A stretch of 57,415 bases of DNA from an uncultured Lachnospiraceae bacterium (GTDB taxonomy: Bacteria > Bacillota > Clostridia > Lachnospirales > Lachnospiraceae). The stretch lies in contig CAMVOY010000007.1 of assembly GCA_947169235.1 (NCBI GenBank), positions 1 through 57,415 of the forward strand. The letters run 5' to 3'. The translations under genes and the position numbers were made by a program. The notes beneath the pieces were generated by a model that had not been told where the DNA came from, searched no databases, and was given only the letters and a program-made list of their open reading frames with translations. Shown piece by piece: positions 12,748 to 57,415 of the stretch (positions within the stretch are counted from its first letter, which is position 1; the number at the start of each line of letters is the position of its first letter).

Positions 12748-12756
12748 AACTGATAC

Positions 12757-12785
12757 TTGCAAGAAAGCGATAATTAAGGTATAAT
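12757..12785 (+). promoter_or_regulatory. Sigma-A promoter of hisC, overlapping the htrA terminator
   Basis: TTGCAA (12757-12762) and TATAAT (12780-12785) are 17 bases apart. Transcription should start near 12792, inside the 5' arm of the terminator hairpin at 12787-12812. The hisC transcript therefore carries only a part of that hairpin. The hexamers are the same as those of the helicase promoter at 6321-6349. Confidence 0.7.
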
Positions 12786-12786
12786 T

Positions 12787-12818
12787 AACCCGTCGGTGTT
12801 TGCCGGCGGGTTTTGTTT
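12787..12818 (+). terminator. Rho-independent terminator after htrA
   Basis: AACCCGTCGG (12787-12796) pairs with CCGGCGGGTT (12803-12812) through 10 base pairs with one G-U wobble and a 6-base loop; TTTTGTTT follows. Confidence 0.8.
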
Positions 12819-12838
12819 AACAATGCTTGGAGGGCGTT

Positions 12839-40996: not shown

Positions 40997-42061
40997 AAGA
41001 CATTTGATCATGGACTCTGTTCCCTGACGAAGATCAAAGCATCCCTTCCATCCGAGGCCGGCGAGTTTGTCGCCGGTCAGAGCCGAATTACTCATCGGGT
41101 TATAGCTTTTGAGCTCGGACTCATCCGGGATATCAAATACGACTTTTCTTCCGGATGCTGCAGCGATCGCCTCCGCGATCTGCCTGATGGTGCATACGGA
41201 CTCAGGGTTGGAAATATTATATGCATTCTGAGCCTCGCCTGAGGTCAGGATGCTGAGCATGGCACTGGCGCAATCAAGGCTGTAGCAGTAGGACCTGAGC
41301 TGAGCGCCCGTGCTTTTCATTACTATATCTCTGCCGTTAAGGACATCTCTGGTAAACTGCGCAGTGGCGCGGTTGTCGTTCTTGGTGATGGCGGGACCGT
41401 AGATGTGTCCCGGGCGTACGATGACGGAGTTGATACCGTATTCCATTCCGTACGCGATCGTCAGTGTCTCTCCGGCTCTCTTTGCGGAAGGGTAGGAGGA
41501 ACGCTCGCCGAGTATGTCCACGTAGCCGTAATCATTCTCGCCGTATGGCTCCATATTGTCCTTCTGACCGTATACCTCACTGGATGAAACATACATAAGT
41601 CGTTCGGAACATTTTTCTTTTGCGAGACGGAGCATCACCTCGAGTCCTGTCAGGTTTGCCATCATGGTCTCGACGGGCTCTCTCATATAAGCAGCCGGAT
41701 TGGCATTGCTCGCTGCGTGGATGATGTAGTCGATATCGCCGTCCACTTTGAGATCATCGGTAGAGGTGGCGTCGTAGCTTAGGTAAGACAGCCCGAGCGT
41801 ATATGCATCCTCGCCGAATCTGTCAGTGATGCGGTCTTTGGTCCTGGCAGCGGCTATCACGCGAATGCCGGCATCCTTCCCAGAGTTTAGCATCAGGAGC
41901 TGGTCGATGATCGATGAAGCGATGAGCCCCGCAGCACCCGTGATGAGGATGGTCTTGCCATACAGTTTTTCGGGCTCAATTATTGATGCTAACGATGTGG
42001 TTATATCCTGATCATATGACGGTCCGAAGATGGATCTGTAGCTATCGCGTGAAGTTGACAT
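40976..42061 (-). CDS. NAD-dependent epimerase/dehydratase
   Basis: A 361-residue extended short-chain dehydrogenase acting on nucleotide sugars. The Rossmann motif is ITGAAGLIASSI, the catalytic pair is in SSYPSAKRAGE (Tyr and Lys), with the serine in YVSSSEVYG, and VRPGHIYGP follows. It resembles dTDP-glucose 4,6-dehydratases and UDP-glucuronate decarboxylases, but the substrate cannot be read from the sequence. TAAGGAGG precedes the ATG. It probably makes a sugar donor for the neighbouring polymer cluster although it lies on the other strand with its own promoter. Confidence 0.88.
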   Translation of the reverse strand: MSTSRDSYRSIFGPSYDQDITTSLASIIEPEKLYGKTILITGAAGLIASSIIDQLLMLNSGKDAGIRVIAAARTKDRITDRFGEDAYTLGLSYLSYDATSTDDLKVDGDIDYIIHAASNANPAAYMREPVETMMANLTGLEVMLRLAKEKCSERLMYVSSSEVYGQKDNMEPYGENDYGYVDILGERSSYPSAKRAGETLTIAYGMEYGINSVIVRPGHIYGPAITKNDNRATAQFTRDVLNGRDIVMKSTGAQLRSYCYSLDCASAMLSILTSGEAQNAYNISNPESVCTIRQIAEAIAAASGRKVVFDIPDESELKSYNPMSNSALTGDKLAGLGWKGCFDLRQGTESMIKCLLDSSKS

Positions 42062-42083
42062 GTGAAGCCTCCTTAGGTATAAT
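42055..42083 (+). promoter_or_regulatory. Consensus promoter of the phosphatase gene
   Basis: TTGACA (42055-42060) and TATAAT (42078-42083) are 17 bases apart, a perfect consensus. The -35 box overlaps the start codon of the minus-strand epimerase gene. Transcription should start near 42090, giving a 55-base leader. Confidence 0.85.
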
Positions 42084-42096
42084 TATTAACACATGT

Positions 42097-42125
42097 ATTG
42101 TAACACAACAGGGTAACTAAATCAA
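42097..42125 (-). promoter_or_regulatory. Promoter of the epimerase gene
   Basis: On the minus strand TTGATT (42125-42120) and TACAAT (42102-42097) are 17 bases apart, with a TGT extension before the -10 box. It fires towards and across the divergent consensus promoter at 42055-42083, so the two transcripts overlap at their 5' ends. Confidence 0.75.
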
Positions 42126-42144
42126 GGAATATAAGAGAGGATAA

Positions 42145-43317
42145 ATGAAAGCATTTTTGAGAAAAATACCAGGCAGGAGTTTGTTGATAAGGGCAGTCGT
42201 TGCGGCATGCGTTTTTTGTATGTTTCTGTGCGCGAGCGGATGCGTAAACGCAGATGACATCGCCCGCGCTGCAAAGAAAAAGACCGTAAATACCACCTTA
42301 TCAACTATTATTTCAACAGTTGATAAGGACGGTTCTCTCATACTGAAGATCTCCAAAAAGTCTCTCACACAGGCAGGATTTAAGGTCGGAGATCTCGTGA
42401 GAGTTACGATCAAAAAGCCAAAGCGCGAGTACCTGGTGCCCATCTGGAAAAAGGACCTGGGCTGGGGGAAGACTAGCCTTGATATCAGCAGCTCCAAGGT
42501 AAAGCTTATCAGGTTCAAAAGAAATCTCGCCCGCCGTGAGGGTATTTCGAAGGCAAAGGCGAAAGGAGCCAAAGTCACGATAACCCTTGCAAAAAAGGGT
42601 GGCTACAGCCTCCCGGACGTGACCGACGATATCAGTGATTACGGAAACGACGAGGAGAGGTTTGCTAATTTCAGAGCGGTAGCTACGGGAGATATAGCCC
42701 CTCATACACTCTACAGATCCTACAGTCCGATATCGGATCACTCACAGTTCGGCGGTAGGACCCGCATCGTGAACTCGCTGATGCAGAGAGAGGGGATCAG
42801 GACGGTGCTGTCTTTAAACATGGATGAGGGGAGTCTTTCACAGTACTTAAACACGGGGATATGTGACTATTATCGCTCGCTTCATGACGCAGGCGGCATC
42901 TCCGCGATCCGCATCGTCGGAAATGATATATCCGCCAAGGAGTTCAGAGAGCCACTCGCTACTCATCTCAGATTCATGATAAACCACGAGGGACCGTATC
43001 TCGTCCACTGCGCCATCGGCCGCGACAGGACAGGCTTTGTTATAGGCCTTTTGGAGGCACTCATGGGCGCCGGTTACGACGAGATCGCCGAGGACTACGC
43101 GATCACCTACAGAAACTATTATAACGTGAAAAAGAACTCCATACTTGACACATATTTCAAAACCTATTTCGACGACAACATCGTCGAGTGGACCGGCGGA
43201 AAAGGGTATATAGACGTCCACACCACCGATCTGAAAAAAGCCGCAGAAAACTATCTGAAGAACAAACTCAAGCTCTCAGAAGAGGAAATCACGAAAATAC
43301 GCGAGAGACTACGCTGA
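42145..43317 (+). CDS. Secreted tyrosine-phosphatase-like lipoprotein
   Basis: The 390-residue precursor has a basic N-terminus, a hydrophobic stretch and a lipobox-like ASGC, so it is probably a lipoprotein with the lipid Cys at about residue 32. Residues 60-155 form a Lys-rich beta domain. The C-terminal half is a protein-tyrosine or inositol phosphatase of the Y_phosphatase3 type: TLYRSYSPISD near 190 and the P-loop VHCAIGRDRTGF with the nucleophile Cys289. Secreted relatives in Firmicutes act on phosphotyrosine or phytate; the substrate here is unknown. The gene has a consensus promoter and stands alone between the epimerase and the giant operon; no terminator is obvious after it. Confidence 0.82.
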   Translation: MKAFLRKIPGRSLLIRAVVAACVFCMFLCASGCVNADDIARAAKKKTVNTTLSTIISTVDKDGSLILKISKKSLTQAGFKVGDLVRVTIKKPKREYLVPIWKKDLGWGKTSLDISSSKVKLIRFKRNLARREGISKAKAKGAKVTITLAKKGGYSLPDVTDDISDYGNDEERFANFRAVATGDIAPHTLYRSYSPISDHSQFGGRTRIVNSLMQREGIRTVLSLNMDEGSLSQYLNTGICDYYRSLHDAGGISAIRIVGNDISAKEFREPLATHLRFMINHEGPYLVHCAIGRDRTGFVIGLLEALMGAGYDEIAEDYAITYRNYYNVKKNSILDTYFKTYFDDNIVEWTGGKGYIDVHTTDLKKAAENYLKNKLKLSEEEITKIRERLR

Positions 43318-43348
43318 TGATTCCAAGAGTTTCACGTTTTAAATGCGT

Positions 43349-43378
43349 TTGACAGGAGGGGGAAGTTGGTGGTATAAT
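43349..43378 (+). promoter_or_regulatory. Strong extended -10 promoter of the giant protein/exporter operon
   Basis: TTGACA (43349-43354) and TATAAT (43373-43378) are 18 bases apart, and TGG before the -10 box gives an extended -10. Transcription should start near 43385, with a 53-base leader ending in GAGGAGGGG. I see no other good promoter in the 14 kb up to the end of the operon. Confidence 0.85.
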
Positions 43379-43437
43379 GTACAAGTTACATGGTGTGATA
43401 AATAAGCAATTACCTATAACAAACGAGGAGGGGATAT

Positions 43438-46400
43438 ATGAAAAAAGTTTCCGGGTCAACAAGGCGGATAATGAGTATTTTTCTCATTGCCGCTTTTTTG
43501 TTTACTGATTTTGCAGGAGTGGGTGCCGACTATGCTTCAAAGGCTACCGCAAAGAGGGAGCGACTGGAGGCTTCCGAGGCTGCCTTACGGAGGAAATTGG
43601 CGAAGACTACAGAACGATATCCGAATGGTGCCTTTGATCTGCTGGAGACACAGCTTCAGGTGAATGAGAGCATAGAGAAAAAAGGGACTATAGCCATTGT
43701 TCGTGAGGGCGGTCTTGACAGCGAGGCAACTGTTACCGTAAAAGCGGTTGATGTGACAGCAGCCTATGATGAGGACTATAGGTTGTATGTGGATGGTGAG
43801 GCATTGAAAAAGCCGGAGAATGCGGTGTCCATGCTGGAACTGTTCGGTGATTCTATCACGGCTGATTACGCTGATGGCCCGGCAAAAAAAAGATCGAAGG
43901 ATGGCGCAGTGTCCGGAGGGAGTGCGGCTGTTGCTGCATCAGCGTCAAAAGCAAAGGAGAAAGTACCCGAGATAAAGAAAGTTAAAGAGGACAGTCTGAG
44001 TCCGCTCCAGCGGGGTGTCAGGGCACAGACCGGAAAGGCGGAAACACAGAAGGACTGGAGGGAGATTACCGAAACCGACCCTGACTACAGTGAGGCCGGA
44101 CAGGCAATGGAGCAGGGCGCCTCGAATATACAAAAGATCGCAGAGGCTATCGAGGGTACAAGTGTAACACTTACTTTTGAAAAAGGTGAGTATAAAAAGG
44201 AAATCGAGGTCGAGGTTCTTGATGATGATATTTCTGAGGGAGAGGAGCAGATCGCTCTTATTCTGTCAAATCCGGTTGGGAGTGAACTCGGAGCAAAGTA
44301 TCATGGATATCTGAATATCGAGGACGATGAGGAAGAGGCTCCCGTAAGCTATGAGATCAGAAAGCGCGTTTATACGGTCGGAGCCGGTGAAGATGAGGCG
44401 CATGTTACGATCGTAAAAAAAGGTGCTGCTGACCGAATGACCGTGACAGATGTCGCGTGTGCAGACGGTACAGCAAAAGCAGGAGAGAACTATGCGTGGG
44501 AGACGCAGCCGGTTGTATTTGTTCCGGGTGAGACTGAAAAAGAGATTATAATACCTGTCAGGAATCTGTCTACAAAAAAGGATATTGACTTTACGGTAGG
44601 AGTGAATAGCGGAGCCGGAAAGGCGGAGGGTGACAGTTCGTTTGCGGTTGTCAAATTGAAAAAGAGAGAAAAGCCGAAAAAGGTCGAGAAGGCCGATGCT
44701 TCGAACGGTGATATGACTCGTAAGAAGTCAGATTCTCGCCGAAAAAGTGGTTATAGGTCTAACTTTACCGGAGGAGCTAAGTTCTCAATAGATGAGAAAT
44801 CGGATACTAATTACAGGATCAAGAAATACGAAGGCTATCGAGTTCCGGATAGCGTTGTCTGCAAGGATAATGTCATCGAATACCTTAACAGTGATGAGCA
44901 TAAAAATGTTGATGACAGATTTGATCGTTGGATAGATATTCCGTTGTCTGATAGTGAAAATCATGAGGGATTGGATATCGATTTTACAAATGTGAGTCAT
45001 ATTGAAATCGAGTTTTCGTCAAAATGGAACGAAGGAAAGCATTATACAAAAAGGACGTGGATATTTAAAAAGAAGAGCTATTATATTCAGGACAGAGAGA
45101 TAGATTTTTGCATCAATGGAGACGGCAAGAAGAACTTTATCGTAAAAAAGGAATCCACCGGAAAGATCAAGAAAACGACATGCACATTGAAACCGAACGG
45201 AAAATTTAAAGGCTATGGCAGATTGCAGTATCTGGTCAAAGGTACGGGAGGAAACAAAAAAGACGGAGCAAGTATCGAGATTTATAAGGTCAGAATCTAT
45301 TATAAAAAATTAAACGTTGTTGTTTATAATAAGGACTATGACAACTCTAATTTTTATATGGAAAAAATCTACAGAGGTGATAAGAAAAAAGAGGATGGGG
45401 TAGCGTTCAATCCAATCGGTCAGGTAACTGTAGATGACAAGGAGGTAGAAGAGAATAATATCAGTGGACCTGTACAGGTTGTGGAAAAAGATGACAGCTT
45501 TCGATTGACACCTTCATATAACACACAAAAACAAACGAATGCAGGATTGTCTCCAAATGAGAACAATACGGATTTTTTGGGGTATATGGTTTTGGATAAA
45601 AAGAACCATCCCCTAGCGGATTCTACCCTGCCACTAAAAGACAGAGTGGATATCTGCGCAAAAGACGACGGGAATTACAGTTTGTCAGATATCGTTGATT
45701 ACTATGATTATGCTCACGATTTTAATGGTAAGAAAAACTGTATTGTATTGGTCCCCGTATTTGTACCCAAAAGAGTAAAGTATATCTTCCAGAGTATAGA
45801 TGGTTCTATTTATAACGGATATAAGATGAACCGATCTGAGGACAAGGCGCTGGAGATCTCCATGCTTGACACTGTTAAAGTGCATGCAGCTCCGAAGAAT
45901 AAAGGTACATCGGTATCGAATTATTCTGCTGTTGATGATGAAGGTGTCGCACTGGATGTGAAGATGGATCCCGTTTCTCAAGAGGGAACGATTGATATTA
46001 CGCCGGCTTTGGATTCATGGAACAGAATAGTAACATGGACTGAGGAGAGGGCAATTAAGAATCCTTTAAAAGGAATTTGGAACATTATTACGAAAGGAAA
46101 ATGGGGGACAACCAAAGTTGATGTTACCGGGAAACGTAGGGGTACTCCCGTTGTTACCGTAAACACCGTACTGGATAAGCTCATGCTTACGGTAATGCCG
46201 CGTCCGGTATCTTCGAAAGAGGCTGATACGCGGAATCTGGATAAGATGGCCGTTGCTTATATCGATCCGAACGGAAAAGAAGCTTATATCACGGATAAGG
46301 ATTCGGAATATCAGTTCACGATCAGTGATTCATTGGCCAATGGAAGTGAGTGCACTCTGGTGGGTGTTGGTAGCTCGGATACGGGTACTAAGGACTCTTC

Positions 46401-49400
46401 CGATCATTATACAATAGTCTGGCAGGATGCAACCTGTGATACGGATAATGACGGAAAGATCAGTGCGGAAGAGATGAAGAAAATGTACGGTACCACTGAT
46501 CAGAGCAAGATATCAGATATCCAGATCCACTCCGGAGACGCGTGGAAGTATACGGTGAATAAGAACTATACAAAGTTGTATTATCAGGTCCGGAAAGTAA
46601 ATCCCGATCCGGGGATGAAGATTGCCGGCGCTGTTTGTGTGAAGGATAGCGAAATATATACAGGGAAGGAGATTAAGGAGTATGTAAACGGCGCAACGGT
46701 AGTGATGGGAGGCGACTCTGCTACCACCAAAAGGACGGAGCCTACTGATTATTATAAACAAGGCGGAAACGGATATTATGCAATGGATGGCGGCGGATTC
46801 CTGGAGTGGCAGGGGAGATATAATGTCTCGGTCAATTACAGTCCCGGGGACGGTTCCACCATGCATGGACATGTGTATACAAGTCCGAATACATTTACAG
46901 AGGTGTCGTTGTTGACTGATTCTGTGATGAAGATATCCGGTGGTTCTCTGCAGGTTGAAAAAGAGAAAGAGTATGTGAATCAAACAGATACAAAATGGGA
47001 TACGCTGCTTGATTACAACCAGATCGATAATTCTAATCACAACTTTAAACTGAACTTTACGGTAGCCAGCAGTGATCCGAATCGGATCCCGAAGAAAGCT
47101 TATTTGCGGTTTTACAGCAAGGAGGGGAATCCGATCACTCTTGGTGAAAAGGATAGCATACCGGCTGATATCGATGCTGACGGGAAAGTATCCTTTATAT
47201 TTAATCCACAGGAGCTGGGACTTGCACCCGGAACCACTATCCGTATTCAGGTTGAGGATCAGATGAAGGAGAGTCCCGATTCTGAGGGTGGAACACTGTA
47301 TCCGGAGAGGAGAACAGGTATATGTCTGAAGAAAGCGCTTGATCAGTTTATGCTGATGAGTTCTTTCGTTTTTGGTGCGGATACATTGGTTGTGGACATC
47401 CTGGGAGCTATCAGTGGCGCGTTTGATCTGGGTAGCGCGGTGGATCTCAATTTTAAGACGGAAAGCGGTGTGTTTTCATCTGTGGACAGCGGTGAAAGGA
47501 ATATGTCCGCCGACGAGATAGAGTACTTCAAACGAACAGCAAATAAAGAAGGCATTGGTGAGGAACTGGATTTTGATAACAATCCGCAGCTCAGTTATGT
47601 TACTGTCAGCATGGGATGGGATAAGCCCAAAGCTATCAGCAAGGATTTCTTTAAGAAAAAAGATGCAGCGAAGAAGAAGGCGGAAGCGGATGAAGAATAT
47701 GCTACTGCCCGCATGAAAAATGAGATTATAGCAGATTGCAAGAATAACCATAAACCGATACCGACCGATAAGGAAGGGAATAAATACGAGGAAACATCCC
47801 CGGAAGATCTGGCTGAGTTGGAAGAGAAGGTAAAGAGTGCTCAGTCGGATTTTGACACGCAGATCAAAAACGATCTGGAGGGGAAAAAGGAAAAGAAGAG
47901 TATTTCGGCCAATCTGAAGATTAACCTGAAGTTTTATTTTGTATTGAACTTTTATAGGGACCCTCTCCGAACCAACAATCCGCTTTATTTCGACAGTTTT
48001 ATGCTTTGTGTTGAGGGAGATGGGAACTACTCCATCAATTCGAGTTTTATGCTTCCGATCGGAATCACCATCAATATCGGTTTCAGCGTGGGTGGGAATA
48101 CAGGTGCAGCTTTTATAGTTGAGAGCCCGCTGGATGATTCACATACGCGCTACTATATGGAGAAATTGGAGGATTCTGGGAGCGCGGCTTCGGGATCGGC
48201 TGCCACTGTGGAACCTTCCGCTACACCTACACCTACACCTACACCTACGGCACCGGTAGCAACGGCCACCGCAACACCAACCGAGACAGAGTCACCGGAG
48301 TCTACGCAGATACCTGCGGCATCTGCATCACCGGAAGTTGTGGAGACATCAGGGAAAAAATCTCATTCACAGCGGAAAATGGCCAGTGCAGGGAATGTTA
48401 TACAGATGGAGACCATCGATGATGTTGAGTATTTGAATATATTCAGGATGATTAAAAATCATGATGACTTTGAGGCGTCCGGCGTGTTTGAGGTCAATCC
48501 GGATGTGACTCTGACAGCGGGTGCCGGTTATGGAAGTGGGGTACTCAGTATCGGTGCGGAAGTGGGAGGAAAAGCTCACTTCAAGATGAACTTTTTTACC
48601 GGTCACCGTTCGAAGCTAAACGATAATTACGGGACGGTTACGCTTGAGGCACATGTTACTGCGAATGTTTCTGTATTCAGTAAAACATGGAGGTGGAAGA
48701 CAGACCCGGTACCTCTGTTCGGAACTGCGCCGCTGTCAAAGAAGGGATTCGATAACAGAAAGTATATAGCCGAGGACGCGTCCGTCATGAAACCGGTCGA
48801 CTTTGATTACATGGATCAACGAAGCGGATGGCAGGGCGATGACGGGATGGCTGTCAATGAGAATAACCGTGTTTTCAGGGCAGCGAAAAAAACTACTCCC
48901 GGTGTGTTGATGAAGACCTTGCAGCAGCAGGTGTATGCCGGTACACGTGTGGATATCAAGAGTATTGGCGGGGGAGATTACATGGCAGTGTTCCTGGATG
49001 CGGATCCGGGGATCAAACTGGATATCAATCGTGTTACCGCCTACTACTCTATCTATAAAGGTTCGACCGGAAAATGGAGCAGACCGATCAGACTGGACAA
49101 TGACAAGACCGGTGATGAGGATGTAAAGATAGTAGATCTCGGTGAACGAGGGATGATCGTACTGTGGGTGGATTCTTCGGAGGTGTTTAGCAACAAAACA
49201 CCTAAAACCACTGTGATGGCCAAGAAAAATCTCAGCGGACGATTTTTCGATAAGTCCTCAAAAACCTTTGGACAGGTTATGGCGATCACGAGGGAGACAA
49301 AAGAAGATCCGACTGCAACTAACTACGGATACGATCTGTCAGCAGATCTCAAACCGAATATCGTATATAGCGATTCGAAAAAGAGTATGATCTGTTATTA

Positions 49401-51927
49401 TACCAAGTGTGAGTATGATTATAATAAATCAGCAGGTGAGAAGATAGGCGATATCACATATCCGACGTATGCCAAGATGGCTTATCGTGAGTATAGGTTC
49501 AGTGGCGACACCGGAACGGACGGTGAGTGGATTGAGGATTATACTAAACTGACGGATCAGAGTATACAAAAAGATATCACAAACGACGGGAAAGATCTGA
49601 CACGCTATCAGAAGATCTGGTACGGACAGGTGACATTTGAGACAATGCCCGATGTGTATATCGAGGAGTCTTTGGATGAGGAAGGTTACTGGACGGCGGA
49701 TATGCTTGACAAAAACGGAAAGCTGTCCGAGAGTCGTATATTTAAAGGCCATAAGGTGAATGGAGGATCACAGAAGCTGGCCGGATCGCGCAGCAATGCC
49801 GGCGTGATAACAGAGAATACCAAAGTAAGTGGTTCACAGGTTGCTGTAGAAAGTGCGCCGAGGATTGTCGATACGGATGCCATCAGCTATAGAAATTCAG
49901 CCGGCGATGATTACGGACTGTTTGCTTATACAGTGGATTATGATCAGGATTTGGGAACGGTTAAGGACAGGGATATTTATCTGCAGTATTTTGATTTTAA
50001 AAATGGATATTTGATCCATCCGATCGTTCTTACAAGTGATGATCTGTGTGACTGTAATGTTAGATTTGTGAAAAATGATAGCGGAACCTATCTGGCATGG
50101 ATTCATGACGGGGATCTCGTGATGTTTTCACTGCATAATCTCGAGGATCATCTGATCAAACGGACGAAAGGCAAAAATACTTATTACATTCTTGATAAGA
50201 CAGCACCTCAGGTTACGAAAGCGATGACGGAGGAGGAAAGGACGGCTGCATATGAAAAAGCCTATATTCCCACTCAGATGATCGTAGACGGTCATCGTCA
50301 TATCAAAGAGACGGTGCTGTATCCGGGCGATGAGGGATATCCCGAAAACAAGACTGACGGTGCTCCGTACTATCCGGATGGACGGGATGAGTCAGAGGGT
50401 GTCATAACTGACTTTGATGTATCGGCAACCGGTGATACCACATTTTTCACATGGACAGAGACCGTTACGAAGCTAAAGAAAGGAATCAGTAAAAACAGTA
50501 TAAAAGCTACACTTCCGAAAAATCAGCTTATCGAGTCACAGATTTGGATGACACGTATTAAATCCGGAAATGATTCAACGGACGGAGAGATTACTGAGCC
50601 GGTAAAGGTGACGAATTATGCCGGTGCTAATTTCGGTAGGGTGACAACTGAGGTTACCAAGGCCGGAGGAGTTAAGCTGATCGCGATCAAAGCGGGTACG
50701 AAAGTTGTTAAAAACAAGAAGAAGGCAGCATATGCGTCTGTTTCCGACAAGAAGGATCTGGTGGCTATGGATGTTGTCCCGGATTCAAAGCCGGAGGTTG
50801 TTGCCGGCAAGGATATACTGAAAAATGTCAAGGCAGGAGAGACCGGAGGGTTCTCACTGGGAGTTCATAACAATGGACTGGCGCGTTCCGGAAAGGTACA
50901 TGTGACGGCTGTTGACAAGGAGGGTGTATCTGTACTCACGGAGATGGCTGATGCTGGGGGAACGGTAGCGGCGCAGAGAGTTGGTGAGATCGTACTGGAC
51001 AACTTGTTAGGGGGAACCACGCAGGAGATTGCCTGTGAGATAACTCCGAAAAAGAGTGCTAAGAGTGTTTCAGTCACGGTTACTCTGAATGATGACAGCG
51101 GCCATGTGCTGGACAAAAGAGTGATAAAACAAGAGCTTAGGGAGTCCACCGAGGTGTCGGATCTGTCAATGACCGAGACAAATAAAAGGGATCGATTTGT
51201 AGCCGGATTTACCGTGTCCAATGTGGGTGCACGTCGCAGTAAAGCACGCAAAGCAACGATTGGTATCATCAGAAATAAAAAGAAGATCAAACTAAAGACT
51301 GTTTCGGTGAAGGCTATGGAAGTAGGTCAGAGTTACTACTATGAGTGCCCTGTAAAAGTGAAATCGTCAAAGCAGTTTGTATCAAAGAGAGAGAAAAACG
51401 GAGATATTCGGGAAACGGGAGTATTCTATGTTGAGTTCGCAGGTGATTCAGTAAAAACGATGGTCACGCGTGAAGCAACCGCGCTTCAAGTCAAACAGAT
51501 CACACAGCTGGCGGACAAGCCGGCAGGCGGAAACAAGGCCAATATAGCAATCGGTCAACAATATTACGGATTGGGATTAAGGTCAAAAAGGAAGTCCCGG
51601 GAAAAGAATATAGAAATTCCGGGTGTCAAAGTAATCTATGTTTCCGAGGATCCGACGATAGCCGGCGTTTCATCAACCGGTGTTATAACAGGATGGAAAA
51701 AAGGCACGACAAAAGTTAAGGTTATAGCAATGCCGGAGGATGACGTGAGCGTGGTTCCATCGAGTTATAACGGAAACGGCCGAGGGGCCGGATACTTTGC
51801 CAATCAGGTAGACGGCTATGTATCATGGCCAACCAAGGCTCTCAAGATTTATTCGGTTACTGTCAATGTGGCAGGTGGTTCGAAATCATCTGCCAAAAAA
51901 AAGAAGGGAGTGTTACGTTATGAATGA
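43438..51927 (+). CDS. Giant secreted multidomain protein of the exporter operon
   Basis: The 2829-residue protein has a Sec-type signal peptide (RIMSIFLIAAFLFTDFAGVGA). The N-terminal 450 residues hold two Calx-beta-like domains; in the first, LLETQLQVNESI and GTIAIVREGG are parted from LTFEKGEYKKEIEVEVLDDD by a charged insert of about 100 residues. An EF-hand-like loop DTDNDGKISAEE lies at about 1001 and a partial one (DIDADGKVSF) near 1245. A Ser/Thr/Pro linker with TP repeats follows at about 1590-1655. Residues 1800-2400 look like propeller-type repeats (IVLWVDSSE, YLAWIHDGD), then two CARDB-like modules and a Big2 domain near 2715-2815. No LPXTG or transmembrane anchor is seen, and the tail is basic. 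Function is unknown; calcium-stabilised adhesion is a guess. Confidence 0.85.
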   Translation: MKKVSGSTRRIMSIFLIAAFLFTDFAGVGADYASKATAKRERLEASEAALRRKLAKTTERYPNGAFDLLETQLQVNESIEKKGTIAIVREGGLDSEATVTVKAVDVTAAYDEDYRLYVDGEALKKPENAVSMLELFGDSITADYADGPAKKRSKDGAVSGGSAAVAASASKAKEKVPEIKKVKEDSLSPLQRGVRAQTGKAETQKDWREITETDPDYSEAGQAMEQGASNIQKIAEAIEGTSVTLTFEKGEYKKEIEVEVLDDDISEGEEQIALILSNPVGSELGAKYHGYLNIEDDEEEAPVSYEIRKRVYTVGAGEDEAHVTIVKKGAADRMTVTDVACADGTAKAGENYAWETQPVVFVPGETEKEIIIPVRNLSTKKDIDFTVGVNSGAGKAEGDSSFAVVKLKKREKPKKVEKADASNGDMTRKKSDSRRKSGYRSNFTGGAKFSIDEKSDTNYRIKKYEGYRVPDSVVCKDNVIEYLNSDEHKNVDDRFDRWIDIPLSDSENHEGLDIDFTNVSHIEIEFSSKWNEGKHYTKRTWIFKKKSYYIQDREIDFCINGDGKKNFIVKKESTGKIKKTTCTLKPNGKFKGYGRLQYLVKGTGGNKKDGASIEIYKVRIYYKKLNVVVYNKDYDNSNFYMEKIYRGDKKKEDGVAFNPIGQVTVDDKEVEENNISGPVQVVEKDDSFRLTPSYNTQKQTNAGLSPNENNTDFLGYMVLDKKNHPLADSTLPLKDRVDICAKDDGNYSLSDIVDYYDYAHDFNGKKNCIVLVPVFVPKRVKYIFQSIDGSIYNGYKMNRSEDKALEISMLDTVKVHAAPKNKGTSVSNYSAVDDEGVALDVKMDPVSQEGTIDITPALDSWNRIVTWTEERAIKNPLKGIWNIITKGKWGTTKVDVTGKRRGTPVVTVNTVLDKLMLTVMPRPVSSKEADTRNLDKMAVAYIDPNGKEAYITDKDSEYQFTISDSLANGSECTLVGVGSSDTGTKDSSDHYTIVWQDATCDTDNDGKISAEEMKKMYGTTDQSKISDIQIHSGDAWKYTVNKNYTKLYYQVRKVNPDPGMKIAGAVCVKDSEIYTGKEIKEYVNGATVVMGGDSATTKRTEPTDYYKQGGNGYYAMDGGGFLEWQGRYNVSVNYSPGDGSTMHGHVYTSPNTFTEVSLLTDSVMKISGGSLQVEKEKEYVNQTDTKWDTLLDYNQIDNSNHNFKLNFTVASSDPNRIPKKAYLRFYSKEGNPITLGEKDSIPADIDADGKVSFIFNPQELGLAPGTTIRIQVEDQMKESPDSEGGTLYPERRTGICLKKALDQFMLMSSFVFGADTLVVDILGAISGAFDLGSAVDLNFKTESGVFSSVDSGERNMSADEIEYFKRTANKEGIGEELDFDNNPQLSYVTVSMGWDKPKAISKDFFKKKDAAKKKAEADEEYATARMKNEIIADCKNNHKPIPTDKEGNKYEETSPEDLAELEEKVKSAQSDFDTQIKNDLEGKKEKKSISANLKINLKFYFVLNFYRDPLRTNNPLYFDSFMLCVEGDGNYSINSSFMLPIGITINIGFSVGGNTGAAFIVESPLDDSHTRYYMEKLEDSGSAASGSAATVEPSATPTPTPTPTAPVATATATPTETESPESTQIPAASASPEVVETSGKKSHSQRKMASAGNVIQMETIDDVEYLNIFRMIKNHDDFEASGVFEVNPDVTLTAGAGYGSGVLSIGAEVGGKAHFKMNFFTGHRSKLNDNYGTVTLEAHVTANVSVFSKTWRWKTDPVPLFGTAPLSKKGFDNRKYIAEDASVMKPVDFDYMDQRSGWQGDDGMAVNENNRVFRAAKKTTPGVLMKTLQQQVYAGTRVDIKSIGGGDYMAVFLDADPGIKLDINRVTAYYSIYKGSTGKWSRPIRLDNDKTGDEDVKIVDLGERGMIVLWVDSSEVFSNKTPKTTVMAKKNLSGRFFDKSSKTFGQVMAITRETKEDPTATNYGYDLSADLKPNIVYSDSKKSMICYYTKCEYDYNKSAGEKIGDITYPTYAKMAYREYRFSGDTGTDGEWIEDYTKLTDQSIQKDITNDGKDLTRYQKIWYGQVTFETMPDVYIEESLDEEGYWTADMLDKNGKLSESRIFKGHKVNGGSQKLAGSRSNAGVITENTKVSGSQVAVESAPRIVDTDAISYRNSAGDDYGLFAYTVDYDQDLGTVKDRDIYLQYFDFKNGYLIHPIVLTSDDLCDCNVRFVKNDSGTYLAWIHDGDLVMFSLHNLEDHLIKRTKGKNTYYILDKTAPQVTKAMTEEERTAAYEKAYIPTQMIVDGHRHIKETVLYPGDEGYPENKTDGAPYYPDGRDESEGVITDFDVSATGDTTFFTWTETVTKLKKGISKNSIKATLPKNQLIESQIWMTRIKSGNDSTDGEITEPVKVTNYAGANFGRVTTEVTKAGGVKLIAIKAGTKVVKNKKKAAYASVSDKKDLVAMDVVPDSKPEVVAGKDILKNVKAGETGGFSLGVHNNGLARSGKVHVTAVDKEGVSVLTEMADAGGTVAAQRVGEIVLDNLLGGTTQEIACEITPKKSAKSVSVTVTLNDDSGHVLDKRVIKQELRESTEVSDLSMTETNKRDRFVAGFTVSNVGARRSKARKATIGIIRNKKKIKLKTVSVKAMEVGQSYYYECPVKVKSSKQFVSKREKNGDIRETGVFYVEFAGDSVKTMVTREATALQVKQITQLADKPAGGNKANIAIGQQYYGLGLRSKRKSREKNIEIPGVKVIYVSEDPTIAGVSSTGVITGWKKGTTKVKVIAMPEDDVSVVPSSYNGNGRGAGYFANQVDGYVSWPTKALKIYSVTVNVAGGSKSSAKKKKGVLRYE
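48223..48248 (+). repeat. Hexanucleotide repeat coding for Thr-Pro
   Basis: The unit ACACCT is repeated a little over four times and encodes a Thr-Pro run in the linker of the giant protein. Because the unit is six bases, gain or loss of copies would keep the reading frame. Confidence 0.85.
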
Positions 51928-52069
51928 AGAAAAAAATCAGGAAACAAAACCCGAAGAAAAACCGGGAGCGATCAGTCTTGATGACTTGGAAAACCTGAGT
52001 GGCGGTGGTGGGTTGCGCGGTGCAACGACATCAAGTACGCATGATCTGTCAGAAGGGGCGACCAAATAA
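51920..52069 (+). CDS. 49-residue double-glycine leader peptide
   Basis: This short gene begins with an ATG inside the last codons of the giant gene (8-base overlap) with GGGAG 9 bases upstream and ends one base into the start codon of the adaptor gene. The first 20 residues are Glu/Lys/Pro-rich. Then comes ISLDDLENLSGG, which fits the double-glycine leader pattern for C39 peptidases: Ile -12, Ser -11, Asp -8, Leu -7, Leu -4, Gly -2, Gly -1. Two further glycines follow, so the released peptide is 18 or 20 residues, ending LSEGATK. It is rich in Thr, Ser and Gly and has no Cys, so no disulfide, lanthionine or sactionine can form. It is the probable cargo of the exporter downstream. Confidence 0.8.
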   Translation: MNEEKNQETKPEEKPGAISLDDLENLSGGGGLRGATTSSTHDLSEGATK

Positions 52070-53037
52070 TGGCTATCATGTTTCGTGAATCGGCAAAACA
52101 TAATAACCGATCAGCAAAAAGAGTTGACAAGGACATCCGACTGGTCTCTGTCAGAATGTGGATCCTGTTGATCGTATCGGCTTTGTGGATCGGAGGCCTT
52201 CTTGCGTGGGGATTCTTTGGTCGGGTTCCCATCACAACGGATGTTATCGGAGTATATACGTATTCGTTGGGAAAGATCCAGTTTCGAGCGGATAAAAGCG
52301 GGACTATCAACGCGGTTGTTTGTCCGCAGGCATATCTTTACGAGGGATCACATATATGTGCATTGACAAATGGTCAAAAGATCGATTCTGCTGTAGAATG
52401 CACAATTACAGATGTGTATGTCCAAAAAGGAGACTGGGTAGATAAGGGGGATATGCTTTGTTCCGGAAGTGTGGTGCCGTCGGATGGCGTTTATGTGGAA
52501 CGGGCATATCTGTATGTGCCTTATGATCAAACCTATCTTTTTGACGGAAATCTGCCGGTTCAGTTGGATGCTGTGGGGATATCAGAGGACTCTACTCTGT
52601 TAAAGGGATTTCTATCCAGCGAAAGTACCGACAATGTCGTGACAAGAGAGGATGTCGAAAGAAAATACGGAAAAGAACTGGTTGAGGATATCATCACGGA
52701 TAATAAACCCTGGGTGGAACTTCGTTGTTCTCCGATGGGCCGTGGCAGTAAAGAGCATTTCTTTTATTCCGAAGAAGAAGATCAGACGCTGGAGTATATG
52801 GAGTGGAGAGATAAGCTTAACGAAAATGGATATGACGCATTTCCGGACTTTACACTTGTTAAGGGGACGGTAACACTCGAGTATCGGCGTCCGATCACAT
52901 TGCTGATACCGGCTTTGGAGAGTGTTTTTAAACCGATTCCTGCGGGGTATGATCGTGAGGAATTGGATGACCAACGACCTTATGAACCTAATGGTGATGA
53001 TATCACCTGGTTGTTATTGGATACGTTAAAAGATTGA
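52069..53037 (+). CDS. HlyD-like adaptor of a NHLM-type peptide exporter
   Basis: A 322-residue protein with a short basic cytoplasmic N-terminus, one membrane helix (MWILLIVSALWIGGLLAWGFF, about 30-51) and an extracellular part. GRVPITTDVIGVYTYS right after the helix and the half-lipoyl motif VYVQKGDWVDKGDML are those of membrane fusion proteins, best fitting the NHLM bacteriocin system secretion protein family (NHLM_micro_HlyD). It is shorter than usual HlyD proteins and has no long coiled coil. The start codon shares a base with the stop codon of the peptide gene; an ATG 9 bases on is also possible. It should link the ABC exporters to the outside. Confidence 0.8.
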   Translation: MAIMFRESAKHNNRSAKRVDKDIRLVSVRMWILLIVSALWIGGLLAWGFFGRVPITTDVIGVYTYSLGKIQFRADKSGTINAVVCPQAYLYEGSHICALTNGQKIDSAVECTITDVYVQKGDWVDKGDMLCSGSVVPSDGVYVERAYLYVPYDQTYLFDGNLPVQLDAVGISEDSTLLKGFLSSESTDNVVTREDVERKYGKELVEDIITDNKPWVELRCSPMGRGSKEHFFYSEEEDQTLEYMEWRDKLNENGYDAFPDFTLVKGTVTLEYRRPITLLIPALESVFKPIPAGYDREELDDQRPYEPNGDDITWLLLDTLKD

Positions 53038-53068
53038 ATGCGGTTTTGTATCTCAGATAGAGGTTGAT

Positions 53069-55207
53069 ATGGGGAAGATCAAAAAAACATCCACAATTTT
53101 GCAGATGGAGTCGACAGAGTGCGGTGCGGCTTCCCTGGGTATGATATTAAAGTACTATGGGTGTTCCGTACCGTTAGAGGAACTACGCGTTGCAACCGGT
53201 GTATCCCGAAACGGGTGCAATGCGAAAAGGATCATCTTAGCCGCCAGGAATTATGGATTAAGCGCGAATGCGTATCAGCGTGATCTGACAGATATGGATC
53301 AGGTGTCAACCCCTTGCATTTTGTACTGGGGATTTGATCATTTTGTGGTTTTTGAGGGAAAGAAAAATCATCAGTATTATATTAATGATCCGGCATATGG
53401 CCGAAGAAGGGTTGACGAGGAGGAGATGGATCAGCTTTTTACCGGAATAACTCTGGAGTTTGAACCGGGTACGATCCGTCCCCAAAAAACACATGAAAAG
53501 TCGATAGTGCGTTCATCGTGGGCTCGTATAAAAGGTGAACAGGGGACTGTCATACCTCTCCTGCTTTTCGGTCTGTTTGCCGTGCTTCCGGGTTTGACGG
53601 TTCCTGCAATGTCACAGGTTTTTGTTGATCAGGTTATCGTAGGCGATCAATTTCAGTGGGTTCATATCATACTGATTGGTCTGTTGGTGTCAATAGTGAT
53701 GCGGGTGATCTACCTCGAAGCTAAAAATATTTTATTGTCTAATCTTCAGACTAAGATCAGTTGTTCTTCTACACATTCATTTTTGGAAAAACTGTTATTT
53801 CTGCCTATATTTTTCTTTGAACAAAGGATGCCGGGCGAGCTGGCTTCACGTACAAAAAACAACGATATTGCAAGTCGTTTTTTTGCCGGACGATATCTGG
53901 ATGTTCTCCTTGATGCTGCAATGACATTGTTGTATCTGTTTTTGATGGCTTATTATTCGATCTGGATGACAATCATGGTCGTTGCGATAAGAGGGCTGAG
54001 TCTGGGGCTTCAGATCATGTTGAACCGACGGCTCAAGGAACATACGATGCGTTGGCAAAATGAGATGGCAGGACTTACGGGTGTTCTGAACAGCGGACTG
54101 CGCATCCTGTCCTCCCTTCGGGCTGCCGGCGCAGAGGAAGTATATGTAAAACGGTTATTGGGAAGGTCTTCAATTGAGATGAAGGCTGCTTCCGACAGAG
54201 AAAAGAGTTCTTATTTCATCAATGCGTTACCGGTAACTACAGATGGTATCGTCCTGATCAGTTGTTTGGGAGTCGGCAGTTGGTGTGTGTTGTCAATGAA
54301 TTATTCCGTGGGATATCTGGTTGCATTTCTCATGTTGGAAGCGCTTTTCTCCGGACCGTTCAACCATCTGGCAAGTCTGTCGGGTGAAAGTGAACTGTTG
54401 CGGAACCACCTCCTACGTATAGATGATATCATGGATTATCCATCGGATGATGAGGGTGTGGTCTATGCCGATTTGCCGGAGAAACGTCTTGAAGGAGAAG
54501 TGGAGTTTAGAAATATCAGCTTTGGCTACAGCAAGGTGGATGAACCTGTGATCCGGGGTTTTTCTTTAAAAATTCCAGTGGGAAAGATGGTGGCGGTTGT
54601 AGGACGATCCGGGTGCGGAAAGTCGACGCTTGTGAAGCTGCTGACCGGAATGCACCATCCGTCCGAAGGGGATATATATATAGATGGTATACCGTTCCGC
54701 GAGATTCCTGTTGGTATCCGCACGGAGAGTATTGCCGGTGTATCCCAGGAGATCACACTTTTTTCCGGGACGATTCGTGACAATATCACGCTATGGGATC
54801 CGGATATATCTGACAAAGAAGTGATGGAAGCAGCTGCTGATGCCTGCATCCATCGTGAGATACTAGGACGTGGAGGCGGGTATGAATATCTTTTGTCCGA
54901 GGGAGGGAACAATCTCTCCGGAGGTCAGAGGCAACGAATCGAGATAGCAAGAGCGCTGTTAAAACGTCCGTCGGTTCTTGTTCTTGATGAGGCCACCAGT
55001 GCTTTGGATCCTGTTGTGGAGGAGCGTGTCATGAAACAAATCAGGGAGCGGGGATGCACATGTTTTGTTGTGGCGCATCGTCTTTCATCAATCAGGGATT
55101 GTGATGAGATCATCGTTTTGGATGAAGGCTGTATCGCAGAGAGAGGTACACATGAGGAACTGATGCAAAAGAACGGAGTCTATGCAAATCTGGTTAAGGA
55201 GCAGTAA
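53069..55207 (+). CDS. C39-peptidase ABC exporter (NHLM type, ABC1)
   Basis: A 712-residue peptide exporter that cleaves and exports double-glycine leader peptides. The N-terminal C39 cysteine protease has Gln12, Cys18 (ESTECGAASLGM), His91 (GFDHFVVF) and Asp107 (YINDPAYG), all catalytic residues being present. A six-helix ABC membrane domain follows at about 155-435, then the ATPase: Walker A GRSGCGKST, signature NLSGGQRQR, Walker B VLVLDEATSAL and VAHRLSS. It fits the NHLM_micro_ABC1 family of peptidase/permease/ATPase exporters. AGAGG precedes the ATG. The small peptide gene 1 kb upstream offers a matching substrate. Confidence 0.92.
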   Translation: MGKIKKTSTILQMESTECGAASLGMILKYYGCSVPLEELRVATGVSRNGCNAKRIILAARNYGLSANAYQRDLTDMDQVSTPCILYWGFDHFVVFEGKKNHQYYINDPAYGRRRVDEEEMDQLFTGITLEFEPGTIRPQKTHEKSIVRSSWARIKGEQGTVIPLLLFGLFAVLPGLTVPAMSQVFVDQVIVGDQFQWVHIILIGLLVSIVMRVIYLEAKNILLSNLQTKISCSSTHSFLEKLLFLPIFFFEQRMPGELASRTKNNDIASRFFAGRYLDVLLDAAMTLLYLFLMAYYSIWMTIMVVAIRGLSLGLQIMLNRRLKEHTMRWQNEMAGLTGVLNSGLRILSSLRAAGAEEVYVKRLLGRSSIEMKAASDREKSSYFINALPVTTDGIVLISCLGVGSWCVLSMNYSVGYLVAFLMLEALFSGPFNHLASLSGESELLRNHLLRIDDIMDYPSDDEGVVYADLPEKRLEGEVEFRNISFGYSKVDEPVIRGFSLKIPVGKMVAVVGRSGCGKSTLVKLLTGMHHPSEGDIYIDGIPFREIPVGIRTESIAGVSQEITLFSGTIRDNITLWDPDISDKEVMEAAADACIHREILGRGGGYEYLLSEGGNNLSGGQRQRIEIARALLKRPSVLVLDEATSALDPVVEERVMKQIRERGCTCFVVAHRLSSIRDCDEIIVLDEGCIAERGTHEELMQKNGVYANLVKEQ

Positions 55208-55211
55208 AGAT

Positions 55212-57269
55212 ATGAAAGGAACCCCACTTTACAATGCTGTGGAATTGGCAGCCAATATGCTCGGACAGGAGATAGTTGCTTTTCATCGTCTCAATGACAC
55301 CTACGATGGGGACTTTACAGTTGAGGATATCGCCAGATTATCACACATACCGTGCCGACAGGTGGTGCTTGACAATGATATAGGAAAAGATCTATTCGGG
55401 ACCTATATCGTCTTTGATGCGGAAACTGATGAGCCGGGTGTACTTGTACAGAGTGGACGTAACCACCTGCTCTACAGGCAGGATAAACCGGTGGAGCGCG
55501 TTACGACGTTGACGGGACATGGGCTTAGTCAGAGAGCTTATGTCATGTATGAGCCACTTCCGGAAAATGAGGTTGGCAGTAGAGAACTGTTTCGTTATTT
55601 TCTGCGAGGGTGTTCTTGTGGAGACAGTAAATGGTTTATACTGTTTGGTATGATCTCATTATTTGTTGGCATTTTACTTCCTGTTGTAACACGCCTTTTT
55701 TATGATTATATGTTACCAAGGGACGATGTCAGTTTGATAGCACAGATATTGACGGTTGTATTTGGTTGCATACTGGCAGGGTATGTGTTTTCGATCGCCT
55801 CGGACACATTTTTATATCGTATGATGTCCCGTGGAGAGTATCGTATGAAGGCTGCGTTGTTGGATCGTGTATTCCGTTTGCCTCCGGAGGTCTATGATCG
55901 ATATGATTCCTCGGATCTGACGGCAAGAGCGGTCGAACTTCCGGAGATGCTTCGGGAAGCGATGACCACGATCTTTAAAGCGTGTTTCGGGTTGCTGTTT
56001 TCGGTGTTTTATATTGTTTCGATGTTTCGTATTCGGGTTGGAGTTACACTTGTCGCATTAGCTTGCCTCGCAGTCATGACGATAGTTTTGCTTGTGTTGA
56101 GCAATCGACAGAAAAAGCGGGCAATCTATATCAAGGATCAGGAGACAAAGAGCCAGTCATTTTTATTTCAGATAATAGGAGGGATAAGCAGGCTTCGCAT
56201 ATCCGGAGCGGAGCATCAGGCTCTGGATGCATATATGGATATGTATGAGAAGCCGATAAAGAAACGTATACGTTCGGAGCGAACGCGAGGCTTTGCATAT
56301 ATCATACAACTGATTTCTTCCTCAGTTATCCTGTGGATGCTGATTCTTTTTGTTTATAATGATGAATACACGGTCGGTGAATATGCGGCGTTTACAACGC
56401 TTTTTGGGATGCTGTCAACTGCTGTTTTTTATGCGCTGGAACAGATCATGAGCGTTTATTCGCAAAGGCCGGTGTTTGACAGGGCGCAGGTTATCCTTCA
56501 GAATCTTCCGGAATCCGGAAGTTCTATCCTGGTTCCTAAACCGTTTGTCGGACGTGTAAAGGTGGAAAATGTTTTCTTTTCCTATCAGGGGCTGGAAAAA
56601 CCTGTGCTTAACGGTATCTCCTTTGAGGTCATGCCCGGTGAGTATATCGGGGTGGTAGGCGCCTCCGGTTGCGGAAAATCAACTCTGATGAAGCTTTTGC
56701 TGGGATTCATGAAACCGGATGAGGGTAAAATACTCTATGATGGATTGGATCTGGAGTATTTGGACAAGCCGGAGCTTCGCAGAAGAATGGGAGTTGTTTT
56801 ACAGGAGGGAATGCTCATCGCCGGAACGGTAGCGGAAAATGTTGCGGTGACAAAACCGGATGCGTCCGATGAGGAGATCATGGATGTTCTCGACCAAGTG
56901 GGGATGTCGGAAGATATCTGTCGGATGCCTATGGGATTGCAGACGATACTCAGTGAGATGTCGGAGACTGTTTCCGGTGGGCAGCGTCAACGATTACTGA
57001 TCGCGCGCGCTATCATCGCCGGTCCCAGGGTATTGCTTATGGATGAGGCAACAAGCGCTTTGGATAACCGGTCGCAGAGCAAGGTAACTGAGGCATTGGC
57101 CAAACTAAACATGACGCGTATCGTCATCGCACATCGTCTGTCTACGATACGTGAGTGTGATCGCATCCTCGTTCTGGAGAATGGAGTCATCACCCAGATG
57201 GGTACCTACGATGAATTGATGACTCAGGATGGATTTTTCCGTAAGCTGGCGGAGAGACAGCTTGCGTAG
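55212..57269 (+). CDS. Second ABC exporter without peptidase activity (NHLM type, ABC2)
   Basis: The 685-residue protein is an ABC exporter with a non-peptidase N-terminal extension of about 140 residues (no C39 cysteine motif). It has six membrane helices (about 140-440) and an ATPase domain with GASGCGKST, VSGGQRQRLL, VLLMDEATSAL and IAHRLSTI. The layout matches the NHLM_micro_ABC2 family, which usually sits next to ABC1 and HlyD in NHLM-type microcin clusters. AAGGAG lies 10 bases before the ATG, 4 bases after the end of the ABC1 gene. Whether ABC1 and ABC2 form a heterodimer is not known. It is the last gene of the operon. Confidence 0.88.
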   Translation: MKGTPLYNAVELAANMLGQEIVAFHRLNDTYDGDFTVEDIARLSHIPCRQVVLDNDIGKDLFGTYIVFDAETDEPGVLVQSGRNHLLYRQDKPVERVTTLTGHGLSQRAYVMYEPLPENEVGSRELFRYFLRGCSCGDSKWFILFGMISLFVGILLPVVTRLFYDYMLPRDDVSLIAQILTVVFGCILAGYVFSIASDTFLYRMMSRGEYRMKAALLDRVFRLPPEVYDRYDSSDLTARAVELPEMLREAMTTIFKACFGLLFSVFYIVSMFRIRVGVTLVALACLAVMTIVLLVLSNRQKKRAIYIKDQETKSQSFLFQIIGGISRLRISGAEHQALDAYMDMYEKPIKKRIRSERTRGFAYIIQLISSSVILWMLILFVYNDEYTVGEYAAFTTLFGMLSTAVFYALEQIMSVYSQRPVFDRAQVILQNLPESGSSILVPKPFVGRVKVENVFFSYQGLEKPVLNGISFEVMPGEYIGVVGASGCGKSTLMKLLLGFMKPDEGKILYDGLDLEYLDKPELRRRMGVVLQEGMLIAGTVAENVAVTKPDASDEEIMDVLDQVGMSEDICRMPMGLQTILSEMSETVSGGQRQRLLIARAIIAGPRVLLMDEATSALDNRSQSKVTEALAKLNMTRIVIAHRLSTIRECDRILVLENGVITQMGTYDELMTQDGFFRKLAERQLA

Positions 57270-57309
57270 GACATTAATAAAAAAGGAGTTTTTTGGTTCT
57301 GTTCTACGC
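57264..57309 (+). other. Inverted repeat at the operon end, possible terminator
   Basis: GCGTAGGACA (57264-57273, including the stop codon) pairs with TGTTCTACGC (57300-57309) over 10 base pairs with one G-U wobble; between them AAAAAA-GGAG-TTTTTT (57279-57294) can form an inner stem. No T-run follows the outer stem, so termination is uncertain. Confidence 0.45.
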
Positions 57310-57317
57310 CAAAATGC

Positions 57318-57346
57318 TTGACATCGCCCGAAAAAGATGTTATAAT
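57318..57346 (+). promoter_or_regulatory. Perfect consensus promoter at the window end, stable-RNA type
   Basis: TTGACA (57318-57323) and TATAAT (57341-57346) are exactly 17 bases apart and are followed by CACG, as in the tRNA-Pro promoter. The transcript, starting near 57353, has no ribosome binding site and can fold: TTCGTGC-GAA-GCACGAA (57371-57387) in the centre and a GTTG/CAAC pair (57353-57356, 57402-57405) at the base. A tRNA, rRNA or other RNA gene may lie beyond the window. Confidence 0.7.
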
Positions 57347-57415
57347 CACGGAGTTGTTTATGCGGAACTCTTCGTGCGAAGCACGAACTATAGTTTTCCA
57401 AGCAACTGATTTTGA

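Follow-up and report, generated by a model that had tools for sequence, protein, structure and literature searches.

What does a double-glycine (GG) peptide do when its gene overlaps that of a giant secreted protein? GG-leader peptides encoded beside C39 exporters are usually classed as bacteriocins or as ribosomally synthesized and post-translationally modified peptides (RiPPs). The window analyzed here, a stretch of 57,415 nucleotides from an uncultured Lachnospiraceae bacterium (assembly GCA_947169235.1, contig CAMVOY010000007.1), encodes such a peptide of 49 residues next to a secreted protein of 2829 residues, hereafter the giant, and an export system. We propose that the peptide, once exported, serves the giant as a dedicated partner, the two forming a two-part surface system and not a classic bacteriocin locus, a reading to which we give a probability of about 0.55.

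As for the gene layout, an earlier interpretation of the window (the sequence-only reading) had listed five genes in the order giant, GG peptide, HlyD-like adaptor, C39 ATP-binding cassette (ABC) exporter (ABC1), and second ABC exporter (ABC2). The open reading frames (ORFs) and their overlaps at 43438–57269, all on the plus strand, verify this arrangement. The giant (43438–51927), identified by its ORF, profile matches, and structure prediction, is followed by the peptide (51920–52069), identified by its ORF and by alignment, which reads MNEEKNQETKPEEKPGAISLDDLENLSGG / GGLRGATTSSTHDLSEGATK, the slash marking the presumed cleavage point. The tight coupling claimed for the two genes holds as well: the peptide ATG at 51920 overlaps the stop codon of the giant, with a GGGAG upstream, and the last base of the peptide stop codon (52067–52069) is the A of the ATG of the HlyD-like gene. 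A second copy of the arrangement lies on contig C5 of the same genome, whose assembly comprises 106 contigs and 2.37 Mb (completeness, 96.55%).

Is the peptide a regular companion of such giants? We scored 62 giant ORFs, counting as adjacent any ORF of at most 110 residues with a GG motif and a charged leader, within 400 bp and on the same strand. Among strong giants, defined as scoring at least 300 bits with the giant profile A1, a peptide adjoins 20 of 31, or 20 of the 24 that are complete. The latter figure rises to 22 of 24 when two broken giants are counted (L046 and L216), which are split into two ORFs and whose peptide adjoins the other of the two; in L076, a complete strong giant has its peptide one gene away. 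For comparison, 343 other genes of at least 250 residues were drawn from these loci instead of from whole genomes, with L038–L040 (C39 loci of the window's genome that lack a giant) set aside. Twenty-seven pass the rule, 19 of them only by sharing a giant-adjoining peptide, and the remaining 8 of 343 have an adjacent peptide of their own, 3 of these 8 being giant fragments. Giant-peptide adjacency, which extends over many genera, is thus more frequent than expected by chance relative to these control genes, with the qualification that the genomes behind some loci are closely related and the events are partly nonindependent. The peptide precedes the giant instead of following it in 5 of 34 pairs, one of which has a peptide on each side, and V9D3004 carries at least three giants in one genome, each with its own peptide.

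Searches that started from the peptide led back to giants. Across 392 genomes of the order, the peptide profile gave matches with E ≤ 0.01 in 31 genomes. All eight places with E ≤ 2e-5 adjoin giants found by a separate profile, and five of these eight were absent from the set from which the peptide profile was built. Of 35 weaker places, whose context was viewed only where they fell inside loci fetched for other purposes, 19 end by model position 35, that is, at about the GG, and 16 extend further. Within 99 relatives, nine peptide places in eight genomes span the core to its end, each of them next to a giant; since eight of the nine are in the profile, this result speaks to exclusivity only. 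The remaining partial matches in these relatives are in G033 (beside another giant fragment), G062, and G002 (contig C37).

The peptides themselves bear on whether they are bacteriocins or signals. In an alignment of 15 giant-adjacent peptides, the GG is invariant and the core follows the pattern LRxxxxxKTxDIS......I. Two other core types are seen, ANPFAxxKRVENHxIDDELKKNI in L214, with a similar one in L217, and LNPxRVDIHPYDDDVKxRM in L120 and L162. The cores have a median length of 21 residues, contain Cys in only 1 of 36 cases, and appear hydrophilic by eye. They are conserved, with a pooled ratio of nonsynonymous to synonymous differences (pN/pS) of 0.24 compared to 0.31 for the leaders, for 12 close pairs that are partly nonindependent and of which several are near saturation at synonymous sites. 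An ordinary unmodified bacteriocin with its exporter, the giant being a carrier, a receptor, or a bystander, would fit the GG leader, the C39 exporter, and the weak matches of the aligned peptides to TIGR01847 (8 of 15; best E, 0.0043) and PF10439 (7 of 15). However, the conserved, apparently hydrophilic cores and the tie to the giant over many genera make this very improbable. Alternatively, the core could be a pheromone-like secreted signal that neighbors or the giant sense, in which case the pair would be a co-regulated surface behavior. Short, Cys-poor, conserved cores and weak ComC-like leader matches (7 of 15; best E, 0.0052) are in line with this, but no sensor kinase or regulator was seen among the neighboring genes scanned, which were a part only and not a systematic search, and we regard a signaling role as unlikely. 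The peptide of the window matches none of the NCBIfam families at E ≤ 1, including the nitrile-hydratase-like and Nif11 leaders, bearing out the statement that it has neither; in the aligned set, 2 of 15 peptides match Nif11 weakly (best E, 0.056). The idea that the core copies a segment of the giant was ruled out by local alignment of 30 cores against their own giants (mean z, 0.03), the sole outlier being L080 (z, 3.6).

Other peptide arrangements were noted. In L071, a single ORF beside a giant (14124–14351) contains two tandem leader-core units, and L219 has five GG peptide ORFs in tandem (12359–13883, minus strand) with an exporter nearby. In the window's genome, contig C40 (L038, 2057–2305, minus strand) encodes a GG-leader peptide with a core resembling a C2H2 zinc finger by eye, beside ABC1/ABC2 genes, and contig C66 (L039, 4309–4524, minus strand) has a peptide ORF with GGAA near another ABC1/ABC2 pair, its long leader being, we presume, Nif11-like in appearance.

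Does the divergence of the core follow that of the giant? Mantel tests on 36 pairs, to which the peptides of L050, L076, and L157 do not belong, gave a rho of 0.66 for giant-core, 0.34 for giant-leader, and 0.41 for leader-core (0/2000 permutations in each case). With the 18 pairs that could be matched to an exporter, 5 of them to one that lies away from the giant and was assigned from the same genome, rho was 0.49 for giant-core, 0.11 for giant-exporter, 0.40 for core-exporter, 0.46 for leader-exporter, 0.08 for leader-giant, and 0.35 for leader-core. Partial correlations on these pairs were 0.49 for giant-core with the exporter controlled, 0.46 for leader-exporter, and 0.03 for leader-giant. 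When the near-duplicates L042, L044, and L119 were dropped, giant-core was 0.40 (27/2000), leader-exporter 0.40 (7/2000), and leader-giant −0.05; removing the assigned exporters as well left 10 pairs with 0.39 for core-giant, 0.53 for leader-exporter, and −0.04 for leader-giant. The leader therefore tracks the exporter, and the core tracks mainly the giant and, less firmly, the exporter too. This tracking, together with the one-to-one adjacency, counts against a matrix-type role in which the peptide would build or seed an extracellular matrix that the giant joins without one-to-one binding. Such a role has a precedent in the cyanobacterial EbfG proteins and the exporter PteB. According to the portions of the two reports consulted, EbfG1–4 have GG motifs and the C39-type PteB is needed for efficient EbfG secretion and biofilm development (PMC4997328), and EbfG4 is found at the cell surface and EbfG1–3 form amyloid (PMC9981879). 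We consider a role of this kind distinctly unlikely here.

How firmly does the exporter belong to the unit? ABC1 (53069–55207; 712 residues) scores well above the Pfam cut-offs for Peptidase_C39 (124.6 bits, cut-off 22), ABC_tran (104.9, cut-off 25), and ABC_membrane (60, cut-off 28), and contains ECGAASL, which we take to be the catalytic Cys motif of the C39 domain; by its domains and motif, it is a C39 peptidase-containing ABC exporter. The claimed fit to the NHLM families was right in that these are the best-matching models for all three transport proteins of the window, yet every score falls under the curated cut-off. The HlyD-like adaptor (52069–53037; 322 residues, best stretch 15–83) has 46.5 bits for TIGR03794 (cut-off, 156.2), with relatives L048 and L077 above the cut-off and L037 and L116 below. 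ABC1 has 818.8 bits for TIGR03796 (cut-off, 853.3), with L048, L077, and L116 above and L037 below, and ABC2 (55182–57269; 695 residues, without a C39 match) has 625.5 bits for TIGR03797 (cut-off, 709.4), with L048 (633.1) and L116 (665.7) also below. Because of these scores, we file the exporter as NHLM-like and not as a member.

Sixteen of the 31 strong giants have an exporter no more than 6 kb away, a lower bound since some contigs end early, and the exporter was accordingly rejected as an obligate neighbor. Thirteen genomes were picked for lack of a visible exporter next to the giant, a set that does not include G065, from which L047 comes. Twelve of the 13 have a C39 exporter elsewhere, scored as an NHLM-like match whose start falls at the C39 end of the model; two such matches (G220 and G452) are cut. 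In G269, G447, and G451, the exporter is on the giant's own contig, ∼10–25 kb away; in G453, the matches listed all start past the C39 part of the model. The peptide remains beside the giant where the exporter lies elsewhere. The sequence-only reading had envisaged a single system of peptide, giant, and exporter, to be doubted if giants occurred mostly without the exporter. About half of them have no adjacent one, which comes near to that, and the peptide nearly always stays: the pair stands, but the five genes are not a fixed unit. Nor is their order widespread in relatives, since giant-peptide-HlyD-ABC1-ABC2 with nothing in between is found complete in four loci (the window, L037, L042, and L044) and in L041 as far as its contig runs, which makes five loci in four genomes of one genus. 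What holds together looks like giant plus peptide, with the exporter near or far.

The architecture of the giant is compatible with a surface role. A signal-like hydrophobic stretch is seen by eye at its N terminus, followed by three Calx-beta stretches (PF03160, 75 bits; cut-off, 27), so the description of the giant as a calcium-type repeat protein is true, but only for its first ∼400 residues. The RTX nonapeptide repeat is not among the eight Pfam families that match it with E ≤ 1. A middle region (∼1345–1760) is β-rich in a model of mixed confidence, and a lectin/sialidase-like β-propeller is predicted at residues ∼1840–2440. The propeller may be akin to GH33 sialidase (Foldseek E, 1e-6); no Pfam sialidase match is found in the window giant, and BNR_2 is detected in 1 of 19 giant family members. 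A Big_2 match is weak and under the cut-off, and the leucine-rich repeat (LRR) tail carried by the nearest relatives is absent.

The pair might work as follows. The giant would exit the cell via its own N-terminal signal, and the peptide, as family knowledge would predict, would be cut after the GG and exported by ABC1 with the HlyD-like adaptor and ABC2. Outside the cell, the ∼20-residue core would partner its giant, most likely by binding and perhaps at the propeller, and thereby complete, cap, or switch an adhesive surface protein.

Several observations weigh against this partnership. Giant and peptide occur together for most complete strong giants, but L154 is a strong, complete giant without a peptide by the adjacency rule, and weaker giants (112–300 bits) have one in 12 of 19 cases (10 of 15 complete), falling to 2 of 12 (1 of 9 complete) below 112 bits. 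The core-exporter partial correlation is 0.40 for the 18 pairs and 0.31 without duplicates (94/2000); since the core also tracks the exporter, shared ancestry accounts for part of the tracking. The giant segment that tracks the core best, residues 2101–2350 (rho, 0.72), also ranks with the most conserved ones, which makes the propeller no more than a hint at the binding site.

Might the peptide instead be modified? The scanned ORFs of the window (40976–57269) yielded no modifying enzyme, as had been claimed, but relatives do have such neighbors. BLAST placed nonribosomal peptide synthetase (NRPS)-type proteins at 16 loci and Lgt-like ones at 13, counts in which several loci share a genome and L070 and L222 are the same genes. 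Lgt-like and Peripla_BP_6 parts are fused in L116 (10185–12023, by Pfam), L118 (1752–3590, minus strand), and L119 (10278–12137), the last two by BLAST; an Lgt-like part and a subtilase share one ORF in L071 (18079–20673, minus strand). L077 has a lysine-2,3-aminomutase-like radical SAM protein and a D-Ala-D-Ala-ligase-like ATP-grasp protein between giant and exporter (14719–16907). These neighbors would favor a RiPP-like modified peptide, or a lipid- or NRPS-linked product, with enzymes acting from elsewhere in the genome. However, a search for NRPS condensation domains (E ≤ 1e-6) came back empty for the window's genome and for G016, G002, G065, G452, and G457, and a second Lgt copy is also present in G014 and in G028, two members of the genus that lack a giant match. 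We therefore treat NRPS and Lgt-like proteins as accessory, having rejected them as parts of a minimal system, and judge a modified product quite improbable.

Other genes vary with lineage. Nine of the 31 loci with strong giants have subtilase matches, and FKBP/trigger-factor-like, Peripla_BP_6-type, major facilitator superfamily, Lgt-like, single-module NRPS, and lipoprotein genes recur in other lineages. In the window's clade, HAD/zeta-toxin-like proteins are encoded close to the exporter or the giant (L037, L042, and L044), and BspA-LRR proteins with an ADP-ribosyltransferase-like domain were noted near the giant/exporter locus in L044 (3533–6640) and L041 (11850–14000), both on the minus strand. 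BLAST with the accessory proteins gave no hits among window ORFs from 36001 on. Within the window, a predicted promoter-like site (TTGACA, 18 nt, TATAAT, with TG before the −10; 12/12 consensus matches) precedes the giant at 43349–43378 on the plus strand. Directly upstream is a tyrosine-phosphatase-family gene (42145–43317; 65.1 bits, cut-off 22.2), for which BLAST gave no hits elsewhere in the set of loci. Of four plus-strand terminator-like sites in 42500–57415, three fall within genes and the fourth, at 57371, lies beyond the last one; a second 12/12 promoter-like site and then a short hairpin lie at the contig end (57318–57387). Rfam gave no matches across 41000–57415.

As for distribution, 22 named loci, several of them from genomes that also enter the analysis elsewhere, fall in Lachnospiraceae (14), other Clostridia or Eubacterium (7), and a metagenome-assembled genome (MAG) of Paenibacillaceae (1). 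In 398 genomes of the phylum, the peptide profile has 4 with E ≤ 1e-4, the strong range being reached only by the window's own genome; the match in G814 (E, 5e-5) extends to model position 52. Among 104 genomes from the family to which the Paenibacillaceae MAG belongs, the MAG itself is the single match. With so few matches, the giant-peptide pair is patchy in its distribution.

Across several Clostridia families and one Paenibacillaceae MAG, then, a conserved core follows the neighboring giant, and if the core binds the giant, GG peptides of this kind need a new reading. More tentatively, and at somewhat less than even odds, each giant may have its own dedicated exported peptide ligand, such pairs being a novel type of Bacillota surface machine, with several per cell sharing one GG exporter. 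Binding, if it occurs, could be tested on isolated domains with short synthetic peptides, and since the P6B14 and V9D3004 records carry no metagenome-assembly label, culture work may be possible. The titles and abstract openings returned by literature searches outside subscription papers and preprints do not name a giant-protein/GG-peptide pair, which is weak evidence of absence; the passages of PMC3482391 consulted have no bearing on such a pair.

Among known systems, the NHLM/NHLP set, as far as the consulted part of its description goes (Haft et al. 2010, PMC2887384), shares a HlyD-like protein, a C39 ABC exporter, a second ABC exporter, and a GG-leader peptide with our locus. Its precursors have a hypervariable core, however, whereas the peptide of the window lacks an NHLP/Nif11 leader match, has a conserved core, and is tied to a giant. 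EbfG/PteB of Synechococcus elongatus, likened here by description, also combines GG-motif small proteins and a C39-type exporter with a surface/biofilm role instead of killing, but in other organisms and with no dedicated giant partner named in the consulted portions of PMC4997328 and PMC9981879. Class II bacteriocins and ComC-type peptides (TIGR01847, PF10439, and PF03047) resemble the peptide in leader type and C39 export; in contrast, the window peptide matches none of these models at E ≤ 1, and its core is conserved with the giant. Finally, compared to Calx-beta proteins and lectin/sialidase-like propellers, the giant of the window stands apart by lacking a Pfam sialidase match, by its 2829 residues, and by being paired with a peptide.

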